DNA of 64,000 nucleotides from Agarophyton chilense. Lineage: Eukaryota > Rhodophyta > Florideophyceae > Gracilariales > Gracilariaceae. Under the pieces are notes generated by a model that worked only from the letters and a program-made list of their open reading frames with translations, made no database searches and had not been told where the DNA came from. Location of the stretch: the NCBI GenBank assembly GCA_030374765.1, contig JARGXX010000007.1, forward strand, positions 310,001 through 374,000, read 5' to 3'. Position 1 is the stretch's first letter. Each line of letters opens with the position of its first letter. Position numbers and translations under genes: made by a program. Shown here piece by piece: positions 1,107 to 51,224 of this stretch.

Positions 1107-3289
1107 CTAGTGCCGACCCCCTAGGGGCTCCCTCACTTTGTTTTCCGGTTGCACCGGTTTCTTCGCCTCAAAGGCGCCTCTTCCTATCGGGGTTCCGGGT
1201 TGTAACACTTCAGCATTCTGAGCAACTGGATTGTCCGTCCGGCGCATTGGTGTCTGAGAAAACCAACTTTTGGCTTTCCAATACATGCCCGCCGGTACGC
1301 GGCTCCTTTCCTCTTCTGAGAGCGCTTCGTAATTCGTCATGATACGAATCAGATCCTTTGCAGGAAGCGTGCATTCTGCACTCAAATGGTGTTTTCCATA
1401 ACATGAATAGCATATCAAACCGTCACGACGGTTGGTCAACATAGGTCGTGAACGGTATGCCGTGCGAGTATCCACCCATCCGGGTTTCCCGTTCTTAAAA
1501 CCTCCTTGTGGTGGCACCGTGTAGCGACGGTAAATAGGGCGACGGCCCTCCATAGCCATTAGGGCTTCCTCGTCCTGAGACTGCGAGTGTGGGAGATCCA
1601 CTGTAGGTACAGAAGAGTCCGTATATTCCATTAAATGGACCGCCTCCTCATGTGAGTCACTCCCTTTGGGTGTCAACGACGAATCTCGTGAGTAAACTGG
1701 AGATTCCAGATGTAGCAGTTTGCTGCGCTGATTAACTCTGGCGGAGATCTTCTCTTTACCCATTGAGGTTCCAAAAGCCACTGAACGACGTGGGCTACCA
1801 CGCGCTCTGGCCGCGTCTCCTTCAGCTTTCGCAAACTGAACTAACTTCAAAAAGGAGACTCTTCCATGCTTCTCTCGATATCGAGCTACCAACGACTTGA
1901 TGCTCGCGTCCAGCCCGTCGATGTACAAGGTAGTCTTGTCCTCCGTCGAGTGGACGTTTCCACAGCAGACTGAAGCTTTAGTAAGCCTTGAGATGTACTC
2001 AGCTTCGCCCTCCTCAGGCTTTTGGGTCACATCCCTTAGGTCCAGGATTGCCTGACGTATCGCGTTTGAAGTCGCGTAATTGCGCAGCAAATACTGCACC
2101 GCCTCTGGCCATGAGGTAACGCCGCCTTCATCGGCTGTCAATGATCCGCATACGGAACGATATTGCTCTAAAGCAAAACCCTTCAAGAAGTGTGGTAAAG
2201 ACACAAATGCCTGTGGTTCACTCAACTCTAGACTGTCTGCTTCGGCAACGAATCGAGTGAGAAACTCGATAACGAGAATGCGGGTTTTCCCATCAAATTC
2301 TAAATCATTAAGACCGATCTTCAATCGTTTGATGTGATCCTTCACCTTCGTGGTTTCGCGTCCTGAGCGCTTCTTGCTCTTCACCTTCAGACGGTAGTAC
2401 CTCTAATTCAGAACCTTCCAATAAAGCGGATTCGTGCACGGGAGCACCTTCAATCCTCTGTTAGGTGAGCCTTTTTTTCTCATCAACCACGAAGACGTGT
2501 TCTTCTTCCAAGATCAGGACCTTCGATGATCATCATCACTGTCGTCGTCATCTGACGTATCTTAATCATCAGAATCATCAGTACTGGAACTAAAACCCTC
2601 CGTACTTGACGATTCATTACTCCAATCACGTGCGGACTTCCGCTTCTTACGTCGTGACTTCGACTTCTTCGAACGAGCTTCCTCCAAAGGAGCTCCTTCC
2701 TCTTCCAGCACGACTGGTTTAGCAGCAGTATACGCATGAACTGCCGCCTCCAGGCGTTCTAAACGAGGGTTAACTCGAGTGAGGACTTTTCTACATCCAC
2801 GGTTAAGCCGGGTAGCGCATCGGGCGTATTCCCGTACCTCTCCAGTAGATGGTTTAAATCCTCACGTAGTGTTTTCACTGATACAGAGACCTGCTTCCCA
2901 TCGTCTTGACGAACAAGTGCTTGATGCGCACTGCGTAATTGTTCGACATCAGAGATAAGAGCAGCGATCTGCGATTCCAACGCAACCATGCGCACACGCG
3001 AAGCGCTTGACTCAGACTTGAGACGACGCACTTCCCTGCGCAAATCATCCTCTTCTTGAGGTCCGACGACCTCAGGGTCAACTACGGCTTCTGGGGTGGG
3101 CGCGACTGCCGCTGCCACAGGGGCCGTTACATCCGAGAGATCTCGTTCATCATTCACCGAGCGTGAGCGCGAAATCGCTTGACGATACAGCCGCTCTCCG
3201 GCTTCAACAGATGAGGAGAGCCTCGGTTTCGGGGGTGGTTCCGCAGGACCGGGGCGACTATTACTCGACTGGCTTCGGGTCTTCGGCAT
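1107..3289 (-). pseudogene. gag: CV1-a gag (coiled coil and CCHC knuckle), frameshifted
   Basis: Gag polyprotein, the capsid and nucleocapsid precursor. Translation from ATG 3289 gives MPKTRSQ, a basic proline-rich head, then a heptad-like stretch (residues ~85-150, VALESQIAALISDVEQLRS) likely to be a coiled coil. The frame breaks near 2760. A Ser/Asp-rich tract continues in another frame at 2737-2483, and the capsid-like part resumes at 2384-1107. That last part holds one perfect CX2CX4HX4C zinc knuckle (CYSCYGKHHLSAEC, about 1400). The coiled-coil head is shared with the gag at 63570. This copy keeps the knuckle and the first gag frame, both of which are broken in the 29038 copy. Confidence 0.85.
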
Positions 3290-3504
3290 CCTAGACCAAA
3301 CCTGAGTCCAGGTGCTAACCAAATGGTGTCTTCGACTTCTCGACCACGTGTTCAACCTCGATGAATTCCGCAATTGCTGGAGGTGGTTTGATAATCAATA
3401 ACTGTAGTGATTCCAATTGTTCCAAGTATCGATATCGATTCCACGTTCCAGGAACGAATTGTTCAGTGCAGCTGACCTCAGTGCTTCTAAATCGGGAGAC
3501 TACT

Positions 3505-4158
3505 TGTAGTATCCGCTCTATCGGAGAGAGCAGACACCTGCAACAGCGTTTGGACTGCCGATGGGTCGCTTGCGGCGAAGGAAAAGGGGTGGTAGAGCTA
3601 CAACACCAGCGAGCTGGAAGTGGGGTGTAAGGCCACTACTCGCCAGCGAGGGTGAACAGTGCAACTGTAAAACGTTGATGGGACGTAGGTACGAGATTGC
3701 TCGTGAAGTGGTTGGGGGCTGACTATCTATCATAGCTCGTCCGGATCTCCGGTTAAGCAATCCTAAGCGAGGAATAGAATAGTCATGATGCCCATGTTGT
3801 GTCCTTTACTTGGAGTCAGCGCTCACCTCTGGTGCACTATATAATGTGTGCCATGGTGAGCGCCCAAATAAATATATAAATAATACCCAGTGGTCAGCCA
3901 CTTAGCCAAACCACAGTATGGGTATGGTCCCTTATGGAAGTCTAGCTACAAAGGGTAGTAAAACCTGCCACGTGGTTCGCCACTACATGCGCCGTTGCAA
4001 GCCAGTCCACTCGTGATACCACGTGTTCCACTAATGTACCCTGCCTCCTGGCATTCTACGCAAGGTGCCGTTTCATATCACAAGTTTGATGACATCACTC
4101 ACTTATGAGTTCGCGAAAAATCATCCTATCGGATTCCCCGACATAGTAGAATACTACA
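3505..4158 (-). repeat. LTR-1 copy A (5' LTR of CV1-a)
   Basis: A 654-bp LTR in minus orientation. It starts TGTAGTATTC and ends GGATACTACA, an 8-bp terminal inverted repeat shared with copies at 8190-8853 and 38100-38765. A TATA-containing imperfect palindrome lies near 3820-3865. Inside the element the LTR is followed by AG and then TAGTCTCCCGATTTAGAAG (3484-3502). This matches the TGGTCTCCCG primer-binding site of the other CV1 copy with one change. Copy A lacks about 12 bp near its U3 start that copy D has. Confidence 0.88.
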
Positions 4159-4204
4159 AGCGGGACCGCGAACTCGCCAATTCGAGGAGGAGAATGTCAG
4201 AAAA

Positions 4205-5340
4205 ATGCTGGAAGAAGGAGTAATCGAAGCAGCTCAATCTGCTTGGGCCTCACCAGTGGTGCTGGTTCCAAAACTTGATGGTTCTTTACGATTCTGTATC
4301 GATTATCGAAAACTGAACGCAGTTACAGTTCGAGATACATACCCGTTGCCTCGAATGGACGAATGTATTGACAGCTTAGGAGAAGCGAACGTGTTCACCA
4401 CGGTGGACGCCAACTCTGGTTATTGGCAGGTGCCTGTAGCGGAAAAAGACCAAGATAAAACCGCATTTGCGTGCACCGGCTACTTTCCAGCGTACTCTGG
4501 ACATCTTGCTCTCAAGATACAAGTGGAAGACTTGTTTAGTCTATTTGGACGATGTGATCATCTTTTACCAGGATGTGGAAAGCCATTCACGGCATGTCGA
4601 GGAGATTCTTAAACCACTACAGAGCGCAGGTATCACCTTGAAGTTCAAGAAATGAGAATGGTTCGCTGGCACCGTCCGGTACTTAGGACATGTGATCAAG
4701 CCGGGACAGCTTGCTTTTCAAGAGGCACAAACAGCGGCTCTTCGCGAAGTACAACCTCCGTCGACACAGAAGCAATTGCGTTCTTTCCTCGGCTTGTGCA
4801 ACGTCTACCGACGATTCGTGCCGCGATACTCGCATATAGCGGCACCGCTTCAAGCAAAGCTGCGTAAAAGACAACCAGTACAGCTAGAACAATTCAGACA
4901 AGCTGAAGCAGAAGCGTTCGACACGCTGAAGACAAAGATTATTACAGCCCCAGTCTTGGCGCTGCCCATCCCCAACCTGCCATACTCAGTGGATACCGAC
5001 TATAGCGAGTACCAAGTAGGGTGTGCCCTTTTTCAAAAACACCCTGATGGTGAACGCAAACCCATTGGTTACTGGTCAAGATCGCTGAACGCAGCTGAGA
5101 AGAAGTATTCAGTTTCAGAAACGGAATTCCTTGCAGTCGTTTGGGCTTTAACCACATCGCGACCGTATCTCTAAGGAGAACGTTTTACCGTCAACACGGA
5201 TCATTCGTCTTTACGATGGTTACTGTCCAGTACAGACCCGTCTGGTCGTCTCACACGAGCGCGCTTACGCCTTTCTGAATTCGATTTCGAAGTGAATTAT
5301 AAGAAGGAACTGGCCAATGTCCAAGCTGATGCGCTATCGC
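4205..5340 (+). pseudogene. CV1-b reverse transcriptase and RNase H, broken
   Basis: RVT_1-type reverse transcriptase: LVPKLDGSLRFCIDYRKLN (fingers/palm), VFTTVDANSGYWQVPV (catalytic Asp), then YLDDVIIFY (the YxDD box) in a second frame. RNase H follows (VDTDYSEYQVGCALFQKH, EFLAVVWAL, NTDHSSLRW). A 50-bp deletion at about 4470, between TGCA-like repeats, removes the RIPFGLTN segment present in the 32527 copy and shifts the frame. Further stops lie near 4655 and 5174. It cannot encode a working polymerase. Confidence 0.88.
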
Positions 5341-7793: not shown

Positions 7794-7852
7794 GAACTCG
7801 AGAAGCGAGAAGAAAAATTGAAGAACTCGAAAAGCGAGAAAAGAAGTCAGGG
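7794..7852 (+). repeat. 29-bp purine-rich minisatellite, 2 units
   Basis: Two units beginning GAACTCGA(G/A)AAGCGAG at 7794 and 7823, in the 3' non-coding part of the element. The other copy (36059-36175) has four units at exactly the same period. Confidence 0.8.
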
Positions 7853-8189
7853 ACTCACTAGGCCTGAAAAAACTGGTAGCATTGGTATTGCTTTGTGACT
7901 CGGGTGTGGCGTTTGCCAAGATCACCAGACACAGTATGATGCAGTGGACTGCTTGCTGAAGCCACACTGGCTGAAGGAACCCTGAAGGCACGACTTAGCC
8001 GTCAATTTTGAAGGGCTGTGACCATTGCCGTTCGTCGCAGGATGTGAAAAGGCGGCTCGCGCCCGAACACCAGAGGACTGGGTGTGCTTAACGAAGTCGT
8101 GAGAACGATGAGTACCCGGAAAGCCGGTTGTCGCACATGTGGTGCACCTGTCTTTCGCCCGATACGGTTCGCGCTTAGCGAGGGGAGTA

Positions 8190-21044: not shown

Positions 21045-21605
21045 TCCTGTAAATGATGCACAAGCTAAACCGGTGCATCATTGTTACTTGATCACTTGAG
21101 CTTCGCCCGAGTGCCTGAAGTGAGGTTGGGCTCAGCTCACACCTCAATTCGTGTTGCCTGCTACCGCTTTTGGGATCCGCCCAAATCCATACGTGATGCA
21201 AGGGCTTATTGCATGCATCACTGTTCTTAGAGTCGTTGGGATTTGTATGAGTGCTTGTAATGAAGTTGAGCTCAGCCCACACCTCAATTCGCGTTGCTTG
21301 CTACCTGTTTTCGGCTCCGCCCGAGACCATACGAGGTGCACGGGCTCAGCCAATGCACCACTGTTTTTTGAGCACTTGGGCTTATTTTGAGTTCTTGAAA
21401 TGAGGTTAGGCTCAGCTAACACCTCACCTCGTGTTGCCTGCTACCGGTTTGGGGCTTCGCCCGAATCCATTCTTGATGCAAGGGTTCAGTGCATTCATCG
21501 CTGTTCCTAGAGTCGTTGGGCTTCGCCCAAGTACTTGAAGTGAGGTTGGACTCAGCCCACACCTCAGTTCGTGTTGCCTGCTACCAATTTTGGGCTTTCC
21601 TTGAG
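21045..21605. repeat. 140-bp tandem repeat, about 4 units
   Basis: The marker G(T/C)GTTGC(C/T)TGCTACC recurs at 21151, 21291, 21431 and 21571, an exact 140-bp period. Units are diverged, especially in the middle. Each contains a near-perfect palindrome of about 26 bp, TGAGGTTGGGCT followed by CAGCCCACACCTCA, and many have a GGGCTTCGCCC-type dyad. Short antisense ORFs across it (minus 21037-21654) repeat the same peptide with each unit and are products of the repeat. Confidence 0.9.
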
Positions 21606-21913
21606 ACGGGTGCAGAAGAAGACATGTTAGCGGTGGCCCAAAACGAATAAACAACGTACAAGATACTTAAGTGTACAAAGAAGAACAGTTTACTAAGGTA
21701 GGATGTCTACCAAATTTTGGAGACGTGTACTTTCTCTCTAATGTTACTTGCGTTTATATTGTAAGGTAAGTGGCGCATTTTGGTGGTTTTCACGGTGGGT
21801 TCTCGGACGAACTTTCAGTCACGCCAGTAATTTTACTTTATTTTTATGGGAGTGGCAATAAAGTGCCCAAAAGCGAGGGTTCGCACGGCAGGTAATTCTA
21901 ATTGTTGGAAATT
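21606..21913. other. Spacer left of the nested stack
   Basis: No gene is visible. The last bases (GTTGGAAATTA) resemble GTTAGAAATTAG near 57430, just inside the 3' LTR of the Copia-4 element. This stretch may therefore be the end of a Copia-4 copy that the Tc1 element entered. Confidence 0.4.
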
Positions 21914-22694: not shown

Positions 22695-23687
22695 CTACCC
22701 TGCGATGCGTCGGATAGGGTAATCAGTGTTGCCTTTTCGATCCCAACCGGTCGAATATACTTGACTATCGGCTTCAGGTTTCCTATCTCTTACAGCATTG
22801 CGTTTGCGTCCAAGAGATGTTGATGCTGATGGAAGGACTTCTGAGCCTAGAGACATGAGAGTTCCAGCTAAGGAAAGTAGTTGTCTGATCTCCTCATCGT
22901 TCGCTCTGTTGTCACGTTCCCTTCTTCTTTGTTTCGATAGCTCCATTGGTTTGAGACGTTCCATATTTTGAAGCAATGATAGGATGAGGTTTTGATCTGT
23001 ATCTTTTATAATGTCACAGCCTGCGAAGTTTAGAACTGCTTCGACTCGGACTTTTCCGACTTCGAACTCATCTTCTAGGGTGTCCGTGAAGATACAAATG
23101 TAACCTTCCCGTCCAGCAACTAAAAGATCGTCGACAATCTTGGCGATGATCAATGTGATGGAACCATCTTTGTTTTTCTTAGTGAACAGCTGGGTGACTC
23201 CGTATAATCTTTGATGTTCTGTCGTGCCAATCATCCATGACTCAACACGCTTCGCCGATTGCCTTCCGGCTTCTACAATCCTATACGGAAGTTTCATGCG
23301 TTTCCATAGGACTCCTTTCTTCTTCTAGAATTATGATGCGGGGCGGACGTAGATATCGCACTGTATCGGACAACTTTGAAGGCACGCACCTTTGATGTCT
23401 AAGACTCCAAAGACAAAACCAAGAGAGAGGGCGATGTCAATCAGGAGTCGGACGATTATCATGTCGGCATTAGAACAACCTTTCCTCATCTCTTCCTTCA
23501 CATCATCCCTGTTGCCGCGTGTTACTAGTCGCGCTTTAAATTTCCGGTTATCCTCTTCCTGTACTTTGACTTTGGAAACTGTATTCGAGGATATGAGGTT
23601 TGCCCCGCGCGGTACTTCGTTCTCCGAAACTTTCATGTAGGATTCAGAACAATTGTCGGCATGTTCCTTGTCCGCTGCCTTCTTCAA
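22695..23687 (-). pseudogene. Copia-1 reverse transcriptase (RVT_2)
   Basis: RVT_2-type polymerase: EVPRGANLISSNTVSKVK, FKARLVTRGNRD, then FGVLDIKGACLQSCPIQCD (first catalytic Asp) and IYVRP. In a second frame IIAKIVDDLLVAG is the YxDD box, with Ile for the usual Tyr. A stop near 23331 and a frameshift separate the two halves. The 5' part of the frame is joined to a variable linker upstream. Confidence 0.87.
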
Positions 23688-23951
23688 AATCCAAGCTGGG
23701 GCGAACTACTTCCCTCGCAGTCACATGTCGTGACCCGATTGCTCGCTGTATATCTTTCGAGATTTGTTGTTCTTCGGACCGTAATTTCCGTTTATTCTCA
23801 AGCTCTGGGTTTTTATTAGATTCTCAGTGTAACTACTCATGTCTTTGTATACACGGTCTCTATCCATCTTGTTGACATTTGTAAGGGAATTCATCGTCTC
23901 CACACCATCTTCTTGTGTATTGGTATTGCCGGGGCTGAAAGTAAGGTCTAT

Positions 23952-25095
23952 TTAATACTCCATGAGTCCTTCACTCAATTCTCTTTCGAGCGGAGAGTCT
24001 GGCCGGAGTCGGATATCTTCGAATGCGACTTTCGATATCGCTCCTTTCTCCTTACGTCGAACCTCTACGATGTGATCTAGAGTTTTAACAATAGTGACCG
24101 TGCGCCATTCTTTTGGTTCGTTCTGTTTAGAGCTTCTATGAAAGTAGAGCACCTCTTTGCCAGGTTTTATAGACGATTCGGGTATCGTTGAGTGGTCGTG
24201 AGCTTTCAACAGTTTCTGCATTGTGCCGGTGGCTGTCTGTTCGGTGCATGCTTTCATTAGTTTTTCGGTCACAAGCCTTCGAGGTGTCCTTAAGATCGAA
24301 GGGGCATACCATTTAGCGAGCTCAAAAGAACTCATGACCTTTGATCCCGTGAAACAGATAGACAGGAAGATTGCTCTGGACAATATTGTTTTGTCGCTTC
24401 CACGATTGTAATCCATTTGGAACTTTTCCAGTATCAGCTTCATGAAGCCGTGCTTTCTTTCTACGATCTCTGTTTTATTATGACGTCGTACGGGTCGCGC
24501 TTTGAACTCTACGTCTGTTTCAGAGAGTATCCCGTACCGGCGTGAACGATGTGCATTACGGTATATACACTATCTCGAATCGTACAGAACATGTAGTCTA
24601 TCAGTATCTCCACATTGAACGCTTGATTCAAGTGGTTAATTGATTCTTTCTTCGATGCTATAGGTAGACCAGATTTCCAGCAAATGGGACAATTAGCGCT
24701 GATCTTCCTAATCTCAAAGTACAATTCCTTGGACTTATATCCCGCACGTTCGCATAGTTTGATTATTTCGATCGGATGTCCATGTGTCAGTCGATGTAAC
24801 CTTCTGGCTAGCGTTCTCGGCCTGCTTCGCTCCATTGCTGATCTCAATAGCCCGCAGACTGTCGGGATCATTGCTTTATGAGCCCGCAAATCGTATGGCG
24901 TTGTAGACCTCATGTAGACCCTAAGTATCCTCACTTCCTTATCGGAGGGTCTTTTGATGGCTATCGTTAGTGGATCCACAAAGAAGTCCGTTGTGCTGTA
25001 TTATTTAACGTCTAGTCCAATCGTCAGGGGATGGTTGTCGTCGAATATGTCAAAAGTTAGTTCAGTCGTCTTGTTTGTGGTATGCCACTGAAGAC
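23952..25095 (-). pseudogene. Copia-1 protease end and integrase
   Basis: On the minus strand: a late-protease stretch (ELTFDIFDDNHPLTIGLDVK), an in-frame TAA at 25001-25003, then the GAG_pre-integrase zinc domain (LARRLHRLTHGHP, then CPICWKSG) and the first catalytic Asp in VEILIDYMF. The core then breaks. The C-terminal part (24443-23952) shows the Copia motif VLYFHRSSKQNEPKEWR followed by HIVEVRRKEKG. Its upstream side is cut by LTR-2 at 25096. Confidence 0.82.
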
Positions 25096-25852: not shown

Positions 25853-26030
25853 TTTCCCCCCCGTTAAGACCGGAGCCCCGGCGACGCATTTTCTGTAAAA
25901 GCAATCGCAGCGCGCTTTTCGGAAATTCCGATTCTTCTTTTCGTCTCACAGCCTTGTGTTTTCCCACTCCACATTGCTTTCGTCTTGCTATTCCATCCTT
26001 CAAGCTGTTCTTGTATCCGACATCTCGCGA

Positions 26031-27615
26031 TGAGCAACCTTCCGCCTTACGTGGTCAGACTACCTACGTCATATGAAGATCTCGACAACCCTTCATTTCA
26101 GCAGACCTCTGCGACGCCTAGACGTTCCGCTCCACTGTCCCGAACTGTCCGTTTACCACAATCGGCTTCCATTTCTGGTCCTGCATACATTTCCTGCACA
26201 GGAGCTGTTCTGCAACCTGCGTCCTCCTCCGTGCAGAGATTCTTACATTACGCGGACTTCGTCGGCCGAGACCACCTGCAGCAGTCTGCCTTATACGCGC
26301 GAGCTCCTTGATTTTTCCCTGCGGCGGTCCGTGACGAAGCTCTGATGAATCAGTATGTGGTCGCCGGTCGCCTCCCCGATGGTATTCCATGGCATGTGTT
26401 GTTTACAACAGGTTAATTAAGCCATTGCGCCGTCCCAAACAATGCGATCAGTGGCTTCAGAAACGAGAGCTTGGTCCAGGCGCGCAAACGATTCACCCGT
26501 CTGGTGTACGAGCGACTACCCCCCATTATCGGCTCGGTGCCTCTCAATCAGGATTGACATTTCGATACCTGGTGAGCTAGGACAAATGGAGGGGCCTACT
26601 GGTATGTCGAGAACCTAGCGGCTTTGGATGTCCAAAGGTGTCGCGGTGTTCGTGGAGTATCCAACGGGGCCCTCTATTCCGACACTCTTCAATTATGCGC
26701 GGAATTCCGCTATCTCCGCAAACGGGATACTCCGTATTGGGAGTTACCCCGGTCGGAACGCCGTACCCGATCTCGACTGGGATATTTGGTTCTCTACCAG
26801 ATGCTCTAAGTGGACCGAATTCTATACCTCGCGCGTCGGAGGCTACTTCCCGATTCCTCAATACTGGCATGAGATCAAAAGTCCTCGTGGCTGTCCTCTG
26901 GAGCTTCTTCCTTCAATCACCTACGTAGGTTCCTTACTAGCAAATGATCCGTTTTCCGGTTATTGGGTAGTCGTCTACATTGAATTCATCGCAAAGATGG
27001 CCGTATCCATCTTATAGGATGTGTACGACACATATCGTTTGTGGTATATGAGCCCGATTGCTTGACAACTTGCGTGAGAACTCGATCTGGCGCTCCTCCT
27101 GGGCTCACGTGCCAATCACGAAAAATTTCTCCGCATGATGAATGTGATTGACCAGATGACTGGACCCTTTTCCTTCCGAACAGCAGGGTAGAGGACGTCC
27201 TCGTCGCGACTATTCACCTGGAAGAACCTGTCTCGGCAGTGACTTTGTCTGGTACAACCCTTGGACTAACCAGCATATCGACGGCGATCACGCCAAAGTT
27301 CTGCAAGAAACTCCGCGAGCAATGCCTCCAACCCAGCCGACTGGTTACGTACACAAGCCAACTCCTCACAATGCAGACGCACTCGTCGAGGAGATGCAAG
27401 AAATCGATTACGACGAAGAGCCAGAAGATCTCATCCTCGAGGATCCCGCTTTGGGTGAAAACAACGCCATAGAGCCAATGGTCCTTGCAGCAATGCAGAG
27501 CTCTGTACCTGAGCCTGTTCGACCAGCAGTGGCTTCCTACGATGCCGAGCTTGGCAATCTGAAGCAGGTCCCTGAAGACGCTAGGATTCCTCCCCACCCT
27601 GTTCAAGGTAATTGA
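26031..27615 (+). pseudogene. Antisense ORF of CV2 (aORF homologue), broken
   Basis: A homologue of the roughly 600-residue antisense protein at 36276-38075, here in several frames with stops. Matching blocks run in order: HYADFVGRD (YPHLADFYGRD); GRLPDGIP (GYIPDGIP); RFTRLVYERL (RFTKLIYQRL); AEFRYLRKRDTPYW (AEFRFLRKRDIPYW); SPRGCPLELLPSITYVGS (SPRGCPVELPPAISYIGS); ANDPFSGYW; LGSRANHEKFL; and MPPTQPTGYV (MPPNQLTGYV). It is antisense to the CV2 coding strand and lies between chromodomain and 3' LTR, as in CV1. The start at 26031 (MSNLPPYVV) is tentative; an acidic tail ends at 27615. Function unknown. Confidence 0.8.
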
Positions 27616-27878
27616 CCGAAGATGCTAATTCTCTTGCGCCCCTCGATGGTTATCAACTCGGACACCCCGAATACCTAACTTTCTTGCCTGAAGGCACTGT
27701 AACAAACCGACTAGCGGTAGTCTCGAGATAACCGGAATAAAACGCTTTGATCTTGTGCAACTCCTTTGATTCTTCGTCTTTCTGCGAGGCCTCTCCTCTT
27801 CTTGCTTCACTTCTCACTTCTAGTGGACCTCCACTTCATTCTTCCTCCTCCTGAAGCTACTTCATACTTCTGTAGGGG

Positions 27879-28105: not shown

Positions 28106-28822
28106 CGTAGTATTCTACTATGCCGGGGAATCCGATAGGTTGGTTTTTCGCGAAGTCGCAGTTGGAACTCATGAGTGAGTGTTATCATCAGCATTGTGAT
28201 ATGAAGCGGCATCCCGCATAGGATGCCTAGAGGCAGAATGTCTTAGTGGAACACGTGGCGTCATGGGTCTAGTGGCTTACCACGGCGCGCGCATAGTTGC
28301 GACCCTTCCTAGGGGAATGCCATATTGGCAACAGCGCATGTAATGGCGATCCACGTAGAAGGCTTTACTACCCTTTGTAGCTAGACTTCCATTAGGGACT
28401 ATACCCATACAGTTGTTTGGCTGAGTGGCTGACCACTGGGTATTATTTATATAATTATTTGGGCACTCACCCTGGTACACAGTATATAGTGTACCAGAGA
28501 TGAGCGCCGACTCCAATTAAAGGAGACAACATGGGCATCTTGACTATTCTGTTCCTCGCTTAGGATTCCTTAACAGGAGATCCGGACGAGCTATAATAGA
28601 TAGTCAGCCCCAAACCACTTCACGAGCCGTCTCGTACCTACGTCCCATCAACGTTTTACAGTTGAACTGTTCACCCTCGCTGGAGAGTAGTGGCCTTACA
28701 CCCCACTTCCAGCTCGCTGGTGTTGTAGCTTTACCACCCCTTTTCCTTTTGCCGCAAGCGACCCATCGGCAGTCCGAACGCTGTCGCAGGTGTCTGCTCT
28801 CTCCGTTAGAGCGGATACTACA
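28106..28822 (+). repeat. LTR-1 copy C (5' LTR of CV1-c)
   Basis: A 717-bp LTR ending GGATACTACA at 28822. Its first base is C instead of the canonical T (CGTAGTATTC). It carries an insertion of about 50 bp (around 28265-28325) relative to copy D. The central palindrome is best preserved here: CTGGTACAC, AGTATATA, GTGTACCAG at 28472-28497. The PBS TGGTCTCCCGAGTTAAAA starts at 28825, two bases after the LTR. Confidence 0.88.
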
Positions 28823-32439: not shown

Positions 32440-33690
32440 CGAACTCGCCAAATCGAGGATGAGAATGTCAGCTAAATGCTGGAGGAAGGAGTTATCGAAG
32501 CAGCTCAATCTTCTTGGGCCTGACCAGTGGTGCTGGTTCCAAAACCTGATGGTTCTTTACGATTCGGTATCGATTATCGAAAACTGAACGCAGTTACAGT
32601 TCGAGATACATACCCGTTGCCTCAAATGGACGAATGTATTGACAGCTTAGGAGAAGCAAACGTGTTCACCACGTTGCACGCCAGCTCTGGCTATTGGGAG
32701 GTGCCTGTAGCGGAAGAAGACCAAGATAAACCCGCATTTGCATGTCACGCCGGTCTCTACCGTTTCAAAAGGATTCCCTTTGGCTTGACGAATGCACCGG
32801 CTACTTTCCAGCGTACTCTGGACATCTTGCGCTCAAGATACAAGTGGAAGACTTGTTTAATCTATTTGGACGATGTGATCATCTTTTCACAGGATGTAGA
32901 AAGCCATTTACGGCATGTAGAGGAGATTCTTAAACCACTACAGAGCGCAGGTATCACCTTGAAGGTCAAGAAATTCGAATGGTTCGCTGGCACCGTCCGC
33001 TACTTACGACATGTAATCAAGCCGGGACAGCTTGCCATTTAAGAGGCACAAACAGCTGCTCTTCGCGAAGTACAACCTCCGTCGAGACAGAAGCAATTGC
33101 GTTCTTTCCTCGGCTTGTGCAACTTCTAACGACGATTTGTGCCGCGATACTCGCATATAGCGGCCCCGCTCAACGCAAAGCTGCGTTAAGGACAACCAGT
33201 ACAGATGGAACAATTCAGACAAGCTAAAGTGGAAGCGTTCGACACTCTGAAGACAAAGATTATTACAGCCTCAGTCTTGGCGCTGCCCATCCTCATCTTG
33301 CCATACTCAGTGGATACCGACTATAGCGAGTACCAAGTAGGGTGTGCCCTTTTTCAAACACACCCTGATGGTGAACGCAAACCCATTGGATACTGGTCAA
33401 GATCGCTGAACGCAGCTGAGAAGAAGAATTCAGTTTCAGAAAAGGAATGCCTTGAAGTCGTTTCGGCTCTAACCTCATTGGGACCGTATCTCCAAGGAGA
33501 ACGTTTTACCGTCAACACGGATCATTCGTCTCTACGATGGTTACTGTCCATTATAGACCCGTCTGGTCGTCTCACACGATGGCGCTTACGCCTTCCTCAA
33601 TTCGATTTCGAAGTGAAGTATGAGAAGGGATTGGCCAATGTCCAAGCTGACGCGCTATCGCGACTCAAAACACTGGGCGAAACCCAAGGC
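32440..33690 (+). pseudogene. CV1-c reverse transcriptase and RNase H
   Basis: RT: LVPKPDGSLRFGIDYRKLN, VFTTLHASSGYWEVPV (the first catalytic Asp is now His), FKRIPFGLTNAPATFQ, and CLIYLDDVIIFSQ (YLDD box). After stops near 33040 and 33130 comes RNase H (VDTDYSEYQVGCALFQTH, then NTDHSSLRWLL and NVQADALSRL). The loss of the Asp in the VDA-type motif and the stops make it inactive. Confidence 0.88.
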
Positions 33691-34819
33691 GAAATCGATG
33701 AAAATATACCTTGCTTCTACATGGAGACCCATTCACCATCTTTTGAAGAAGAGGAACAAGAGACCATTGATGATTATTCGGATGCAGACCCGTTCCTTGC
33801 ATTAGCAGACACTGACCCTTCAGTTCAACTCGAGCGAATCTCGTGCACTGAGCTCCTCAATGAGCAACACGTCGATAAGTTTTGTGCGTCGATACGCTCT
33901 CGTCTTAACAGGGGGGAGGAGCTCCCCTTTTCACTCGATTCAAGAGGAATACTGTTAAGACATGTCGAAAAGCATGATCAAATCGTGATTTAACACGTCT
34001 TGAAGAGTCGAGTACTCCATCTGGCACACTACAGCAGGCTGTCTGGTCATCAAGGAGGAACGAAGTTGTTCATGACTCTAAGAAGATATTTTTACTGGCC
34101 TACTTTGGCAGTGGACTGCCATGCTACAGTGAGGTTGTGTACAACATGTGCGAAGAATTGCGTGAAGCTTTACAGGAAGCGGAAACCGATGACGTTATTC
34201 CAGGCGAAGAGGTTATTGCTACATATTGTTAATCACCGACCGCTCTCGAAGCTAGTGCGTACTGTGCCGCTGAAGCAGATAACCGGAGCCGTAGTCGCAC
34301 AGGCGTTTATCAAACACTTTTGTATTTTTATACGGAACACCAGAAGTTCGGTTATCAGATAATGGGAAGCAATTCCTTGCGAAGTTCTTTCAGATTGTTA
34401 GCCCCATTATGGACACCCGAAACGTGTTTACCACGACCTATCATCCGCAATTCAACGGTCAGGTGGAGCGTTTCAACCGCACGCTGATAGCAGCATTACA
34501 ACACTACATTGCGGACCACCCGAAAGAATGGGACATGTTTACATATACTCTGTGCTACGCGTACAATACGCAAGTGCATACCCCTACAAATTTGGCACCG
34601 TTCGACCTCGTGCTCTCACTTAACCCTCCGGCTTTACCGGTTGCGCTCGACGACGAGACAGAATTGGACGCACCGACCCCGGCTGAGTACCATCTGAAAT
34701 GGAGGAATGACCTGAAGGCCAGAGCAGAAGAAGCTGCTAAAAAGTCTCAAAGACGCAAGCTCGCTATAAGCGAAACTATGACGCCAGAAGGCGAAGAGGA
34801 AATCCGGCAATCCGATTAG
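33690..34819 (+). pseudogene. CV1-c integrase core
   Basis: The spacer after RNase H is followed by the zinc domain HLAHYSRLSGHQGG, then LCTTCAKN (34000-34200). A deletion at about 34205-34235 removes the first catalytic Asp segment (VSIDILG of copy b). The frame then continues (NHRPLSKLVRTVPLKQ), and after a shift shows YHPQFNGQVERFNRTL with the catalytic Glu. It ends in a Glu-rich tail. It is non-functional. Confidence 0.85.
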
Positions 34820-34833
34820 GAGGTCACGTCTTC

Positions 34834-35945
34834 GTGCGAGTTGAAAGACCTGACAAACAGGAAGAATCTCGTCATAAGTTGTTGCCGATAGCGGCTGGAC
34901 TCTTCAAAGTGGTAGAACTTAATGAAGAGACAGTGGTCATCAAGACAGGTGTGGACGTTGCCCGTGTATCGCGCGATCGCGTTGAAGTCGCGCCTGACCC
35001 GCAAGTGGAAGTCCAGGTACCTGGTAGAACTAAGGAGGTAAGTGCGACGCAACGTCAATGCAAAAGCCCAAGTGACTCTGGGGAGAGTGAACCGCCACCA
35101 AGGGATCGAGCGGAGGAGAAAGCTCCTGATCTCCCACTGCCGGCGGTTGCGTACGCCAATCACGGACAGCCTTCGAAATATCGGGATATGCCCCGTGGCA
35201 CGCGCACACCCGTAAGTACAGAAATGTAATCTGAAAGCAGGAAAGATGTTTTGGAATTTGCCCCAAGGACTTGGAAACGAATGCACGCGAAAATGCCCCT
35301 TTGCCGCTTCAGGCTGAACAGTCAGGTGGAGCGCCACTCGCTGTTCCGCCGATATCGGCTCCCATCCCTCGTGGGCAGGAAGAAGAAAAGGAATCGCCTC
35401 CTGTCGTGGTGCAAGCACCATCGCCCACCCAAAAACGGTCAGAATCGGATAAACCGAAGAAAGTTCATCCACGAATGGAATTGAGAAATAGCGAGAAGTA
35501 CGCTTCTATGGAACCTGGAAAACAGGATAGCTCTTTATCTGAGAAAGATTCTCAAGGAATGAGTACACTGCCCTTGCGGGCAGAACGACAGTTAGTCGAC
35601 GAGCGAATGCTTAGCGACGCTGAGACTGCTAACACAGAGACGCTTGGGTCAGCCCTAAGGCATTTCAAACCTGTTAACAGGAATCTCGCGCCAACAGCAA
35701 AAGCATTGGGAAACGCCCAGGAATATGTTGTGGATCGCATATGTGAACATGGCGAGCATGAAGATACCAGAGAATTACTGTATCGAGTCCGTTGGTACGG
35801 TTTTACTCCGGAAGTGGATACGTGGGAACCTATAGCTTATATCCCCCGTTCGCAGCTCGTGCGATATCATCGACGCATGCGATTACCACTCCCCAGGGAG
35901 ATCGACTCCTCGATAATCGGGCTCATGGGCACATCCCATTTCTAA
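34834..35945 (+). pseudogene. CV1-c integrase C terminus and chromodomain
   Basis: GPF-like module (LLPIAAGLFKVVELNEET), then a long Pro/Glu/Ser-rich spacer. The chromodomain lies at about 35720-35880: QEYVVDRICEHGEHEDT, LLYRVRWYGFTPEVDTWEP, IPRSQLVRYHRR. The frame 35271-35945 is open for 224 residues, and its chromodomain keeps the aromatic positions expected for methyl-lysine binding (Y, W, W). A frame break lies near 35229. Confidence 0.88.
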
Positions 35946-36058: not shown

Positions 36059-36175
36059 GAACTCGAGAAGCGAGAAGAAGGATTGAAGAACTCGAGAAGC
36101 GAGAAGAAGAAGTTAAGAACTCGAGAAGCGAGAAGAAGAAGTTAAGAACTGGAGAAGTGAGAAGAGATGAAGACT
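36059..36175 (+). repeat. 29-bp purine-rich minisatellite, 4 units
   Basis: GAACTCGAGAAGCGAGAAGAAG units start at 36059, 36088, 36117 and 36146; the last is slightly diverged. It lies between the chromodomain stop and the 3' end of the antisense ORF. CV1-b has two units. Confidence 0.85.
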
Positions 36176-36275
36176 AGAAGATAAGAAGGGAACGTGAAGA
36201 CACGAAGTCACCGGAGTTTTATTGGTATCAAGATACCACCGCAAGGGTGTTGAATAGGAGTCTTTTCTAGGATCA

Positions 36276-38075
36276 TCAAAGAGACTTGCGAGCACGCAGG
36301 TTCGCAAGAAGCTGTGCGCGATCACCCTCAACTTGGTCCACGGGAAAGCCCGCATCTAAGAGGAACTGCCTCAGCGGATCCAAGCTTGGGTACTTGACCG
36401 GCACCGCACTTGGTTGTTGGGTAAACCCATGACAGTACTCTTGAGCAACTCCCGCCGCTGCGGATTGATCAACGGAAGTGGGTACGCCTGCCAGCTCTGG
36501 CTCGTTTTCGTAACCGAGTTCAGCCACAGCTCCCGGCTCTTCCTCATACGGTTCCTCTCCGTTCTCGGATGGAGTAGCATCGTACACGTATCCAGTAAGC
36601 TGGTTCGGTGGCATGTCACGCGGGTTCTCCCGAAGAAAGCCAGCCTGCTTGGAGGTGATCAACTGGCGCGTCCAGGGGTCGTGCCAAACGAAATCTCCAG
36701 CACTTGCTGTTCGTCCAGGAGAATGGTCGTAGTGTCCTGCACGGGTTCCGCAAGCGGATTGATCAGCTGGCGCTCCAGACCAATCGACATTTTCGATCAA
36801 ATCCACAAGATGGAGGAAGTCGGCATGGTTCGCACGGGATCCCAGGACAAAGGAAAGATCGAAATCTCTCGCGTACTTTCGCGCTGTGGGCGAAATGTAC
36901 CAAACTCTAAAGGTACCATAAGCATCCCACAGGAGGTAGACGGCCATCTTTCAATATCCCGAGAACGGGTCGTTAACCAACGTGGATCCGATGTAGGAGA
37001 TCGCCGGTGGGAGCTCCACAGGGCAACCACGAGGACTCTCGATCGCTGCCCAATGCTCCGGAATACCAATGTAGCGCCCGAAGCGCGCGTTCCGCCGGAT
37101 GTGATCATTCTCGATCATTTGATACGGCTCCAAATAGCCCAAACGTGATCCAGTACGAGGGTCCCAACGGGGATTATCCCAATAGGGAATGTCACGCTTT
37201 CGAAGGAAGCGGAACTCCGCACGGAGAAGAGGTTGCTGAAAGCAGAAAGCTGCATCACGCACACCGCGCACACCGCGCCAACCGCTAACATCGACTTCAA
37301 CGAGTGTCTCGATATACGAGTAACCTTCACCGTCGGTACGGGCTTTCCAGATATCTAGTTCCCATTCCTGTGGGAGGAGAACCGTACTGATGAATCGGTG
37401 AAGACGCTGGTAAATCAGCTTGGTGAACCGCGTACGGGCTTCCGACAAGGTTTCCGTTAAATATCGCACAATCGCGTTGTCTGGCAAAGCAATATGGCTC
37501 GCCCAGTCGTCGCTATAAATCGCGTGTTCCGGAATACCGTCAGGGATGTACCCACCGTGTACATACTGTCGTATCAACGCGTCATAGCGGATAGCAACTG
37601 GATCAAACCAGGGCGCTTGCGCGGAAAGTTCAACGTCGTCGAGAGGATCTCGTCCATAGAAATCCGCAAGGTGCGGGTAGCTCCGCTGAGCACGACGAGG
37701 AGGACCTCGAATCACGCCTGCAGAGGCGACGTAAGCCGCGCTCGGCATCGGAGCCACGGTTGGCTGAGGTAACGGTACCGACCGGAATCCGCTGTACGGT
37801 GTGGGGAACGAACGGTATGGACCAAGTTGAGCAGTAGGCTGCGACGCATAACCAGCAGTGTTGGACGGAGCCCCAGAAGGCACATCCTCAGAGAAGGGCT
37901 GAAACAGGTTGGACCCGGCGTTCGGATCCATCGCGAGAGATCGAGCTGAAGAGCGATTAGGAACAGAAGGCTGTTGAGAACTGTAAAAGTTGGTCGGCCA
38001 GCGAGGATTTCGTGATGGCGATGAGTACCCGGAACACCGGTCCGACTGCGTATAAACGCTTCTTGCGTCCCCCAT
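36276..38075 (-). CDS. aORF: antisense ~600-residue protein of CV1-c, unknown
   Basis: Not recognised. It is encoded antisense to gag-pol between chromodomain and 3' LTR. ATG 38075 lies in ACCATGG, 25 bp inside the LTR. One frame runs 600 codons with a single internal TGA at 36953-36951, so either two ORFs (374 and 223 residues) or one broken gene. The N-terminal 110 residues are Ser/Pro-rich. The rest is aromatic-rich and probably folded (YPHLADFYGRDPLDD, RFTKLIYQRLHRF, AEFRFLRKRDIPYW, SPRGCPVELPPAISYIGS, WDAYGTFRVWYIS). An acidic tail follows, ending in RAQLLANLRARKSL. The TGA arises where CV2 has 27 extra in-frame bases after GYW. There is no signal peptide, membrane segment, zinc motif or catalytic signature that I can name. 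The CV2 homologue is at 26031-27615. Confidence 0.7.
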
Positions 38076-38086
38076 GGTTCGCGCTT

Positions 38087-38099
38087 AACGAGGGGGGTA
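38087..38099 (+). promoter_or_regulatory. Polypurine tract of CV1-c
   Basis: AACGAGGGGGGTA lies immediately before LTR-1 copy D (38100) and is the expected plus-strand primer site. On the other strand it forms the leader just upstream of the antisense ORF start. Confidence 0.8.
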
Positions 38100-38765
38100 T
38101 GTAGTATTCTACTATGTCGGGGAATCCGATAGGATGATTTTTCGCGAAGTCGCGGTTGGAACTCATAAGTGAGTGATGTCATCGAACTTGTTATATGAAA
38201 CGGCACACCGCGTAGGATGCCAGGAGGCAGGGTACATTAGTGGAACACGTGGCATCACGAGTGGACTGGCTTGCAACAGCGCATGTAGTGGCGATCCACG
38301 TGGCTGGTTTTACTACCCTTTGTAGCTAGACGTCCATTAGAGACCTTACCCATACAGTGGTTTAGCTAAGTGGCTGACCACTGGGTATTATTTATATATT
38401 TATTTGGGCACTTACCCTGGCACACAGTATATAGTGTACCAGAGGTGAGCGCCGACTCCGAGTAAAGGAGACAAATGGGCATCATGACTATTCTGTTCCT
38501 CGCTTAGGATTCCTTAACCGAAGATCCAGACGAGCTATAATAGATAGTCAGCCCCAAACCACTTCACGAGCCGTCTCGTATCTACGTCCAATCAACGTTT
38601 TACAGTTGCACTGTTCACCCTCGCTGGCGAGTAGTGGCCTTACACCCCTCTTCCAGCTCGCTGGTGTTGTAGCTCTACCACCCCTTTTACTTCGCCGCAA
38701 GCGACCCATCGGCAGTCCGAACGCTGTCGCAGGTGACTGCTCTCTCCGTTAGAGCGGATACTACA
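38100..38765 (+). repeat. LTR-1 copy D (3' LTR of CV1-c)
   Basis: A 666-bp LTR, TGTAGTATTC to GGATACTACA, with both ends canonical. The central palindrome (38406-38453) has TATATA at 38428-38433. Antisense to its U3 start is an open frame beginning MSSNRDFAKNHPIGFPDIVE (ATG 38166). The right end joins Copia-1 gag at 38766. Confidence 0.9.
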
Positions 38766-42377: not shown

Positions 42378-43800
42378 TGTAACCGCCTAGCAAGAACAGG
42401 GGGATGTTTCCGGGTACCTGTCCTGTGGACCGGAGCAATCCCCCTGTCTCTGCACTTGGGACTCCCACACCGATGATTGGTTGGTGTGGAACGGCCAGTT
42501 GGGATGGTGGAAGTGGAAGCGAATCTCGAGATTGAGATTTGCTTCAAAACACACCACCCCGTTCCAAAACCGGCCAAACGCCCATACCGGTCTCCGTCAC
42601 CCAAGACGGCATCGCGACCGTCCGCGGCGCCATCTCCGTCTTCCTCCGTTTGCCCCTTCTTCCTCGGCCACCGCCGCCACCCAGCACCGTCTGGCTTCCC
42701 GCTGCCGTCGCAGCTTTCGGCCGCCCTTGCCCCCGCATCACCAACCTGCCGCGCTTCGTCAAGCGCCCCATCGTCGCTCTGCCGTCGCAGCGCGCATGAA
42801 CCCTCTCCCTTGTCTGCGCCCCAACAGCCTCTTCCGCCTCTTTGTTGTCCGCCTCCATGGCCTCCGCCTTCGCGGCCTTCGACTCCACCGCCTCCGTCCC
42901 TCTCATAGCGTCGCCTGCCCAACCGCGCTGTGTCGCCCAAGCAGGCTGCGTCGCCGCAACGCACTACGTCGACTTCGACCGCGTTGTCAGGTTGAGGGTG
43001 GCCAGCCATAGCGTCATCCACGACCAGTTGGAACTGGTCTACGACCGCTTCTACGGACGCATGGGTGACGCTCTGGTCCACTTCACTGTCCAATTCTTCG
43101 GCTTCAAGGTCCAACACCGGCGCGTATACCGGCTCGCGGCTGGATGAGTCGGTATCGTCGTCAGGTCATCTCTCGAATCAAGGTTGTAGGATTCAGGTTT
43201 GGATGAAACGGTGGAACTGGTGATTCCAGATTCCAACCACGTATTATATAGACGTCATCAGAATAGACAGAGTCTTTCCTAGGGAGGTCTACTAGAAGAC
43301 GTCCCAAATTCAAGGCTGCGGGTGTAGCTTTTGGGCTTTGTCTTATGCATGAGTGGAGTTTATGCAATATTCTGATCGTCTATATAAACCCCCGAGCCGA
43401 GCGCTTCGGCGCCAACTCTGCTCGGGCAGACCACTTTTCCCCGGAAGCTCCTTGGGCACTCTCACTTCTCTCAGCCCTGTCCGGGCCTCTTTTGCCATCA
43501 ACCGTTTCTCTCTCTGCCCTGCTTCCCCCTTTCACTTTCCTTGGCGGCTTGGTCTCCCGCCGTCTTTAGCATCAACCTTTCCCCACTACGAGTGCAGCCC
43601 TGCAGTGGCTTGCGGGCGCTCGTAGGTGTTCTTCGGAGTGGTTGTATCGTTCGTTAGTGCTCCCTGGGCCTTTACTCGTTGGCCTTTTCCGCCGGCCTCT
43701 GTGGTTTTGTCTACGGTTGTAGACTGGTACCCCCTGGCATTTCGTTCTACTGGGTCTGTCACCACCCGCGCCATTAGCAGCCCAGAAAATGGCGTCCACA
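42378..43800 (+). repeat. Gypsy-H 5' LTR
   Basis: 1423 bp, TGTAACCGCC... to ...GGCGTCCACA. A TATATAAAC box is at about 43380 and a second TATATAGAC at about 43245. The GC-rich first half carries long overlapping ORFs on both strands (plus 42481-43011, minus 42203-43117) with low-complexity Pro/Arg/Ser or Gly/Asp/Glu products, repeated in the 3' LTR; they are probably not genes. The gag ATG (43789) is within its last 12 bases. Confidence 0.93.
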
Positions 43801-49801: not shown

Positions 49802-51224
49802 TGTAACCGCCCAGCAAGGACAGGGGGATGTCTCCCGGTACCTGTCCTGTGGACCGCAGCAATCCCCCTGTCCCTGCACCTGGGACTCCCACACCGATGA
49901 TTGGTTGGTGTGGAACGGCCAGTTGGGATGATGGAAGTGGAAGCGAATCTCGAGATTGAGATTTGCTCCAAAACACACCACCCCGTTCCAAAACCGGCAA
50001 AACGCCCATACCGGTCTCCGTCACCCAAGACGGCGTCGCGACCGTCCGCGGCGCCATCTCCGTCTTCCTCCGTTTGCCCCTTCTTCCTCGGCCACCGCCG
50101 CCCCCCAGCACCGTCTGGCTCCCCGCTGTCGTCGCAGCTTTCGGCCGCCCTTGCGCCCGCATCACCAACCTGCCGCGCTTCGTCAAGCGCCCCATCGTCG
50201 CTCTGCCGTCGCAGCGCGCATGAACCCTCTCCCTTGTCTGCGCCCCAACAGCCTCTTCCGCCTCTTTGTTGTCCGCCTCCATGGCCTCCGCCTTCGCGGC
50301 CTTCGCCTCCACCGCCTCCGTCCCTCTCATAGCGTCGCGTGCCCAACCGCGCTGTGTCGCCCAAGCAGGCTGCGTCGCCGCAATGCACTGCGTCGACTTC
50401 GACCGCGTTGTCAGGTTGAGGGTGGCCAGCCATAACGTCATCCACGACCAGTTGGAACTGGTCTACGACCGCTTCTACGGACGCATGGGTGATGCTCTGG
50501 TCCACTTCACTGTCCAATTTTTCGGCTTCAAGGTCCAACACCGGCGCGTATACCGGCTCGCGGCTGGATGAGTCGGTATCGTCGTCAGGTCATCTCTCGA
50601 ATCAAGGTTGTAGGATTCACGTTTGGATGAAACGGTGGAACTGGTGATTCCAGATTCCAACCACGTATTATATAGACGTCATCAGAATAGACAGAGCCTT
50701 TCCTAGGGAGGTCTACTAGAAGACGTCCCAAATTCAAGGCTGCGGGTGTAGCTTTTGGGCTTTGTCTTATGCATGAGTGGAGTTTATGCAATATTCTGAT
50801 CGTCTATATAAACCCCCGAGCCGAGCGCTTCGGCGCCAACTCTGCTCGGGCAAACCACTTTTCCCCGGAAGCTCCTTGGGCACCCTCACTTCTCTCAGCC
50901 CTGTCCGGGCCTCTTTTGCCATCAACCGTTTCTCTCTCTGCCCTGCTTCCCCCTTTCACTTTCCTTGGCGGCTTGGTCTCCCGCCGTCTTTAGCATCAAC
51001 CTTTCCCCACTACGAGTGCAGCCCTGCAGTGGCTTGCGGGCGCTCGTAGGTGTTCTTCGGAGTGGTTGTATCGTTTGTTAGTGCTCCCTGGGCCTTTACT
51101 CGTTGGCCTTTTCCGCCGGCCTCTGTGGTTTTGTCTACGGTTGTAGACTGGTACCCCCTGGCATTTCGTTCTACTGGGTCTGTCACCACCCGCGCCATTA
51201 GCAGCCCAGAAAATGGCGTCCACA
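49802..51224 (+). repeat. Gypsy-H 3' LTR
   Basis: 1423 bp, colinear and equal in length to the 5' LTR without indels that I can see; most differences are C/T or G/A. Because it contains the gag ATG, transcripts leaving this LTR would start MAST and then read flanking DNA, stopping soon. Confidence 0.93.

Follow-up and report, generated by a model that had tools for sequence, protein, structure and literature searches.

A third protein gene was identified in chromoviruses of the red alga Agarophyton chilense. The stretch analysed, hereafter the window, comprised 64,000 nucleotides (nt) of contig JARGXX010000007.1 (positions 310,001 to 374,000) and contained the element CV1-c, in whose 3' region a long antisense open reading frame (aORF) was located. 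Chromoviruses of at least three subfamilies (A, B and C) were shown to carry this gene opposite to gag-pol, between the chromodomain and the 3' long terminal repeat (LTR). Purifying selection was shown to have kept the aORF protein while the subfamilies diverged to near synonymous saturation, and it was almost certain that a selected protein gene exists in the aORF. The chances were judged about even that its product is an antisense-expressed, trans-acting nuclear accessory protein controlling the element.

The antisense gene and its carrier elements

The original prediction placed a 600-codon minus-strand frame with one internal TGA at 36276..38075 in the 3' region of CV1-c. The frame was confirmed to be open over this span save for the TGA, which fell at codon 375. 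The proposed start was revised, as the alignment placed the conserved start codon (MDPNAG...) further in, at 37931, giving a start-to-stop span of 36276..37931 (-) with a matching ATG in subfamilies A and B. The in-frame ATG at 38075 was also present in most A copies and had no counterpart in B. Homologues of the frame were found, and in their alignment a short stretch beside the TGA was absent from the window copy. Hence, this copy reads as decayed and dead, and the TGA would not be a programmed stop. The N-terminal part of the window aORF matched P0001, an unnamed protein product of Agarophyton chilense, at E 1e-176, and the median number of stops per copy was 2 in the aORF frame versus 10 to 20 in the other five frames. 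The window aORF was therefore far beyond chance, and a chance frame was ruled out.

CV1-c was a Ty3 chromovirus, a class that rested on its reverse transcriptase, RNase H, chromodomain at the integrase end and LTRs. The reverse transcriptase segment was located at 32527..33039 (+; Pfam RVT_1, E 7.9e-30), the RNase H segment at 33205..33990 (+; RT_RNaseH, E 1.2e-27) and the chromodomain at 35724..35852 (+, opposite to the aORF; Chromo, E 1.7e-07). The gag gene was a separate sense frame with a weak Pfam match only. Sequence comparison within the window gave a 5' LTR at 28106..28822 (+), and the 3' LTR (TGTAGTATTC...GATACTACA) occupied 38100..38765 (+), adjoined by a polypurine tract read from the sequence at 38090..38099 (+). 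Purine-rich short repeats (GAACTCGAGAAGCGAGAAGAA-like) were also observed at 36059-36150 (+), between the chromodomain and the aORF end.

A homologous antisense reading had been proposed in a second element of the window, CV2, and was recovered by tblastn of P0001 and a further homologue, P0007, at 26030..27666 (+). This subfamily B copy aligned in order to residues 50-551 of P0001 at 35-58% identity, in three successive frames, and contained 9 stops in 485 mapped codons. From its sequence, it is a broken, frameshifted copy. The different LTRs and diverged chromodomains of CV1 and CV2 were confirmed; the earlier count of only two element families was corrected to at least three subfamilies in the genome.

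The genome-wide occurrence of the gene was explored in the 79.8 Mb assembly, in which P0001 matched one place at 99%, in keeping with an origin of the window from this alga or one very near to it; the database entry for P0001 is itself no sign of expression. For P0001, 78 of 1792 candidate places were scored, 18 of which lacked an internal stop, and at most of the 78 the surrounding open frame was about 611 codons long. The corresponding numbers were 79 of 1733 for P0007 and 99 of 1600 for another homologue, P0008, and 40 of 345 candidate places were scored for a 330-base piece of the window aORF. Forty-eight loci (L001-L048) were examined, comprising 15 of subfamily A (CV1 type), 23 of subfamily B (CV2 type) and 10 of subfamily C. 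Some subfamily A loci were near-identical to each other.

The same layout was found at nearly all of these loci. A chromodomain was present beyond the aORF end on the opposite strand in 47 of the 48 and on the same strand in none; it was not found in L042. The median distance between the aORF end and the chromodomain was 336 nt in A, 252 nt in B and 199 nt in C. An LTR matching either of the two types in the window was located upstream of the aORF start, in the orientation of the element, in 42/48 loci as counted by hand from the result rows, including L028 with its LTR about 1 kb distant. No LTR match was obtained for L031, L039, L043 and L046-L048; five of these loci belonged to subfamily C, the LTR of which had not been used as a query. 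The aORF thus had the layout of the published aORF-3R class, an antisense frame between pol and the 3' LTR (PMC7264820).

Subfamilies A, B and C were each monophyletic in the midpoint-rooted trees of both the aORF and the chromodomain, with support for B of only 0.80 and 0.74. Since both trees returned the same three groups, the aORF seems to have moved together with the element and not between subfamilies. Two loci had additional features. In L048, an LTR of subfamily A type (93.7%) was found at 3097-3763 inside the first codons of a subfamily C aORF; it shared the orientation of the element and seems to be a solo-LTR insertion. In L007, another aORF-like fragment, diverged to 38% identity, was found at 4016-4591 immediately next to the LTR of this copy, and therefore elements are nested or clustered there.

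Purifying selection on the aORF protein

The ratio of nonsynonymous to synonymous substitution rates (dN/dS) was evaluated with the window's two copies counted within A and B. Between subfamilies, the median proportion of synonymous differences was 0.70-0.77, which was near saturation, and the median proportion of nonsynonymous differences (pN) was 0.23-0.35. The median dN/dS was 0.136 for A-C (0/160 pairs saturated), 0.159 for A-B (177/384 pairs saturated and left out) and 0.169 for B-C (225/240 pairs saturated and left out). The ratios involving B were less exact because fewer pairs were unsaturated, and they are best read as well below 1. Both other same-strand frames and two of the three opposite frames gave ratios above 1 for A-C and A-B. 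Moreover, the sites with no base common to the two groups were concentrated at third codon positions, with counts at positions 1/2/3 of 75/57/154 for A-B, 62/54/175 for A-C and 56/55/111 for B-C. An accessory protein maintained in this lineage, as had been proposed, was thus supported, and the outcome that would have spoken against it, a dN/dS close to 1 and no surplus of third-position changes, was not what the comparison between subfamilies displayed.

The picture within subfamilies was different. The dN/dS values there were 0.62-0.76, nearly neutral if taken alone, and third positions accounted for 35-37% of the singleton variants and 35-45% of those that were shared. Such a pattern is expected where selection acts on the source elements and the dead copies they leave behind decay almost without constraint.

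The pN of the aORF (A-C 0.227, A-B 0.322) was close to that of the chromodomain at the same loci (0.197 and 0.399), and the longer integrase tail gave 0.370 and 0.452. The aORF protein was conserved about as well as the chromodomain. The possibility that the aORF stayed open merely as the mirror of a sense gene was rejected. The median stops per copy in the sense frames were 10, 20 and 14.5, and among these frames a low ratio was confined to rc1 (0.28-0.32, with a median of 20 stops), which was expected of a third-position mirror.

Putative transcription signals, protein features and possible function

Putative signals of a separate transcription unit were found at both ends of the aORF. In the window, a putative poly(A) signal, AATAAA, was located at 36218..36223 (-), 52 nt beyond the aORF stop. 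The motif occurred beyond the stop at a fixed place in 15/15 A copies and at a near-constant place in 17/23 B copies, and the rates in dinucleotide shuffles were 0.025 (A) and 0.071 (B). Copies within a group are related, so these counts were not independent; the signal was nevertheless telling because A and B, which are near synonymous saturation, both carried it. As judged by eye, short trailer motifs past the stop looked alike in A, B and C and might fold into a small hairpin ahead of AATAAA.

At the other end, a TATA-like box (TTTATAC on the aORF strand) was located at 38050..38056 (-), 43 nt inward from the 3' LTR edge, outside the LTR itself. TATA and ATG positions were obtained from the 31 of 48 loci with a placeable LTR edge. 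TATA-like stretches were found at +40 to +46 from this edge in 12/14 A loci (TTTATAC), 11/12 B loci (TATAAA in 4, GTAAAA in 7) and 3/5 C loci (TATATA or TTTATAT). The ATG was at +168 in 13/14 A loci, one being shifted by a base, and at +176 to +179 in 10/12 B loci. Taken together, these motifs suggest that the aORF is probably an antisense transcription unit of its own. Antisense transcription would start from a TATA-like promoter within the interval of about 170 nt that separates the 3' LTR from the ATG, and the transcript would end at the poly(A) signal before the chromodomain.

The conserved protein was about 556 residues long in P0001. Relatives outside this genome comprised three Gracilariopsis chorda proteins and others labelled ena or lgn, with identities to P0001 down to 30%. 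The original prediction recognised no family, and the hidden Markov model and structure-prediction searches agreed with it. No significant Pfam match was obtained for the window copy (E up to 1) or 27 homologues (E up to 5), and no significant sequence match was obtained in the PDB, in which one hit had an E of 0.48. Of two AlphaFold models, the better had a mean predicted local distance difference test score of 65.6 and a confident, mostly helical core; neither model, both being of middling confidence, matched a solved fold. Residues 1-85 of P0001 and P0007 consisted to 62-64% of Pro, Ser, Thr, Ala, Gly and Gln. The region past residue 450 was acidic in both, with charges of -16 and -6, and was followed by a short C-terminus predicted to form two helices. 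In three more distant proteins, the N-terminal and acidic features were weaker or elsewhere. Hydropathy gave no membrane helix in these five proteins (maximal 19-residue Kyte-Doolittle mean 1.0-1.4), and hence no Env-like membrane-spanning segment.

An element type without the gene was represented in the window by CV1-b, in which 326 other bases replaced the gene at 7840..8165 (+) and a leader-like remnant of 25-36 nt was left. This spacer had 25 genome matches including the window's own, 18 of which were almost full length at 88% or more. AATAAA and the TATA-like box were both absent from all three aORF-less copies that were read. Because the short leader-like piece was retained, these copies look derived by loss, and the simplest reading is that the aORF-less type arose from gene-bearing elements by loss of the gene and multiplied afterwards.

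A trans-acting accessory role is suggested because a selected protein is encoded on the opposite strand, away from the element's own promoter, and because aORF-less copies have spread. The product would act in the nucleus and may control the expression, silencing or integration of the element. A nuclear regulator was favoured because the published analogues gene23 and TRP28 are argued to be regulators in the available parts of the sources (PMC7264820; PMC11963269), and the probability of this role was set a little under one half. The fuller proposal, given tentatively, is that the aORF represents a new element-encoded family for which no relative with a known fold could be detected, and that it is transcribed as a self-contained antisense unit, kept across red-algal chromoviruses and active in trans as a nuclear regulator, and that gene-less elements survive on gene-bearing copies.

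Several points weigh against these proposals. No DNA-binding domain was found, and the matches to E3_binding and Ish1 were under the Pfam cut-offs. The former covered residues 351-370 of P0001 (E 0.029, 15.0 bits against a cut-off of 23.7) and occurred in 5/27 members. The latter covered a 48-residue piece at the C-terminus of P0007 (E 0.0033, 18.2 bits against 26.6) and occurred in only one of six C-terminal pieces. AATAAA was at the matching place in 0/10 subfamily C loci, 4 of which had CATAAA. The TATA-like motifs were chosen after the sequences had been viewed and are suggestive only, and the 48 loci were the best-scoring places, biased to intact copies, and no census. Furthermore, the aORF is dispensable in cis, since aORF-less elements multiplied.

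Four other explanations were considered. The protein might be an anti-silencing factor that keeps the host from silencing the element through chromatin. In favour of this, heterochromatin is regarded as the target of chromoviruses, and action in trans fits the spreading of aORF-less copies; however, the idea was without domain support and was indistinguishable here from a general regulatory role, and it was considered unlikely. Somewhat less likely still was a structural or co-assembly particle protein, a second Gag-like or Env-like product made from the antisense unit. The helical core in both models, the conservation of an element-borne protein and the weak Pfam match of the separate gag frame are consistent with it. 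However, neither sequence nor the models of middling confidence gave a significant capsid or envelope match, the membrane helix was lacking, and structural genes of LTR elements are expected on the genomic strand.

Antisense RNA, exerting double-stranded RNA control of the element with the protein as a by-product, was very improbable as the main function. This control is raised as a possibility for plant antisense frames in the available part of a review (PMC7264820), and such RNA would arise from an antisense unit that has separate ends, but this function leaves the dN/dS of 0.14-0.17 and the third-position excess unexplained. A captured host gene or nested transposon, which the absence of the region from the CV1-b type might suggest, had hardly any probability left, as the three subfamilies share the place of the gene and are congruent in both trees, the aORF-less copies keep the leader-like piece and look derived by loss, no significant Pfam family was matched, and the gene was not confined to the two copies of the window but present at dozens of places in three subfamilies of the one red-algal genome searched, with relatives elsewhere. 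The reading as a trans-acting nuclear accessory protein was accordingly kept as the best explanation, at the strength given above.

Three further features of the window were observed. Direct repeats of 1.4 kb at 42378-43800 and 49802-51224, 98% identical and 7.4 kb apart, resemble the two LTRs of a young element. Tandem copies of a unit of about 140 bases, 73-80% alike, were present at 21057-21607. Reading frame fragments at 22695-24979 (-) may be the remains of a decayed Copia-type polyprotein, which they resemble.

Comparison with known antisense genes

Grande and RIRE2 are members of the Tat/Retand group. The lead to antisense frames in plant Ty3 elements of the Grande/Tat type, given in the original prediction, was right. 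Like Grande gene23 and the RIRE2/Retand antisense frames, the algal frame is antisense and located between pol and the 3' LTR, as far as the available part of the review describes them (PMC7264820). In the same source, gene23 of maize Grande is reported to encode a nuclear protein and to be transcribed from a promoter lying upstream of it. Unlike these flowering-plant elements, the algal element has a red-algal host and a chromodomain. TRP28 proteins of Retand are predicted to bind DNA, with a regulatory role proposed, and the region between pol and the 3' LTR is 2.9-6.6 kb in Retand versus about 2 kb here, according to the accessible text of PMC11963269. Retand is a non-chromovirus, whereas CV1-c carries Pfam Chromo. 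The TRP28 family (PF04195) was not among the families listed for the 27 homologues or the window copy at the E values given above; a TRP28 model had no match in the genome, but the search controls matched nowhere either.

Outside plants, Boty of Botrytis cinerea, a Gypsy element, has an additional antisense gene, brtn, at the same place; the likeness is by description only, from the partly available review and a 2011 Virology title (PMC7264820; cited in PMC8365987). HBZ of human T-lymphotropic virus type 1 (HTLV-1) is likewise an antisense gene near the 3' LTR; it has a regulatory function and encodes a bZIP protein. In the available part of the review, the HTLV antisense promoter lies within the 3' LTR (PMC7264820), whereas the putative TATA box of the aORF, marking the predicted start, lies outside it, and no bZIP family was among the Pfam matches.

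No description of this gene was found among the open papers listed on red algae, Gracilaria, chromoviruses and antisense frames, Repbase and most subscription literature being outside this scope, and LTR or Gypsy elements were not mentioned in a 2025 Gracilaria sex-chromosome paper (PMC12502185). The arrangement was already known, and the protein family appears to be new in this host lineage and element type. Antisense accessory genes near the 3' LTR have been described in elements of flowering plants, in deltaretroviruses and in a Gypsy element of a fungus. Because the protein in red-algal chromoviruses is apparently unrelated, the arrangement may have arisen more than once; if the proposed reading is true, the Grande/Retand layout would have been invented independently in these elements. 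The three aORF-bearing subfamilies and the derivative that lacks the gene, its putative promoter and its putative poly(A) signal offer a natural contrast for the function of such genes.
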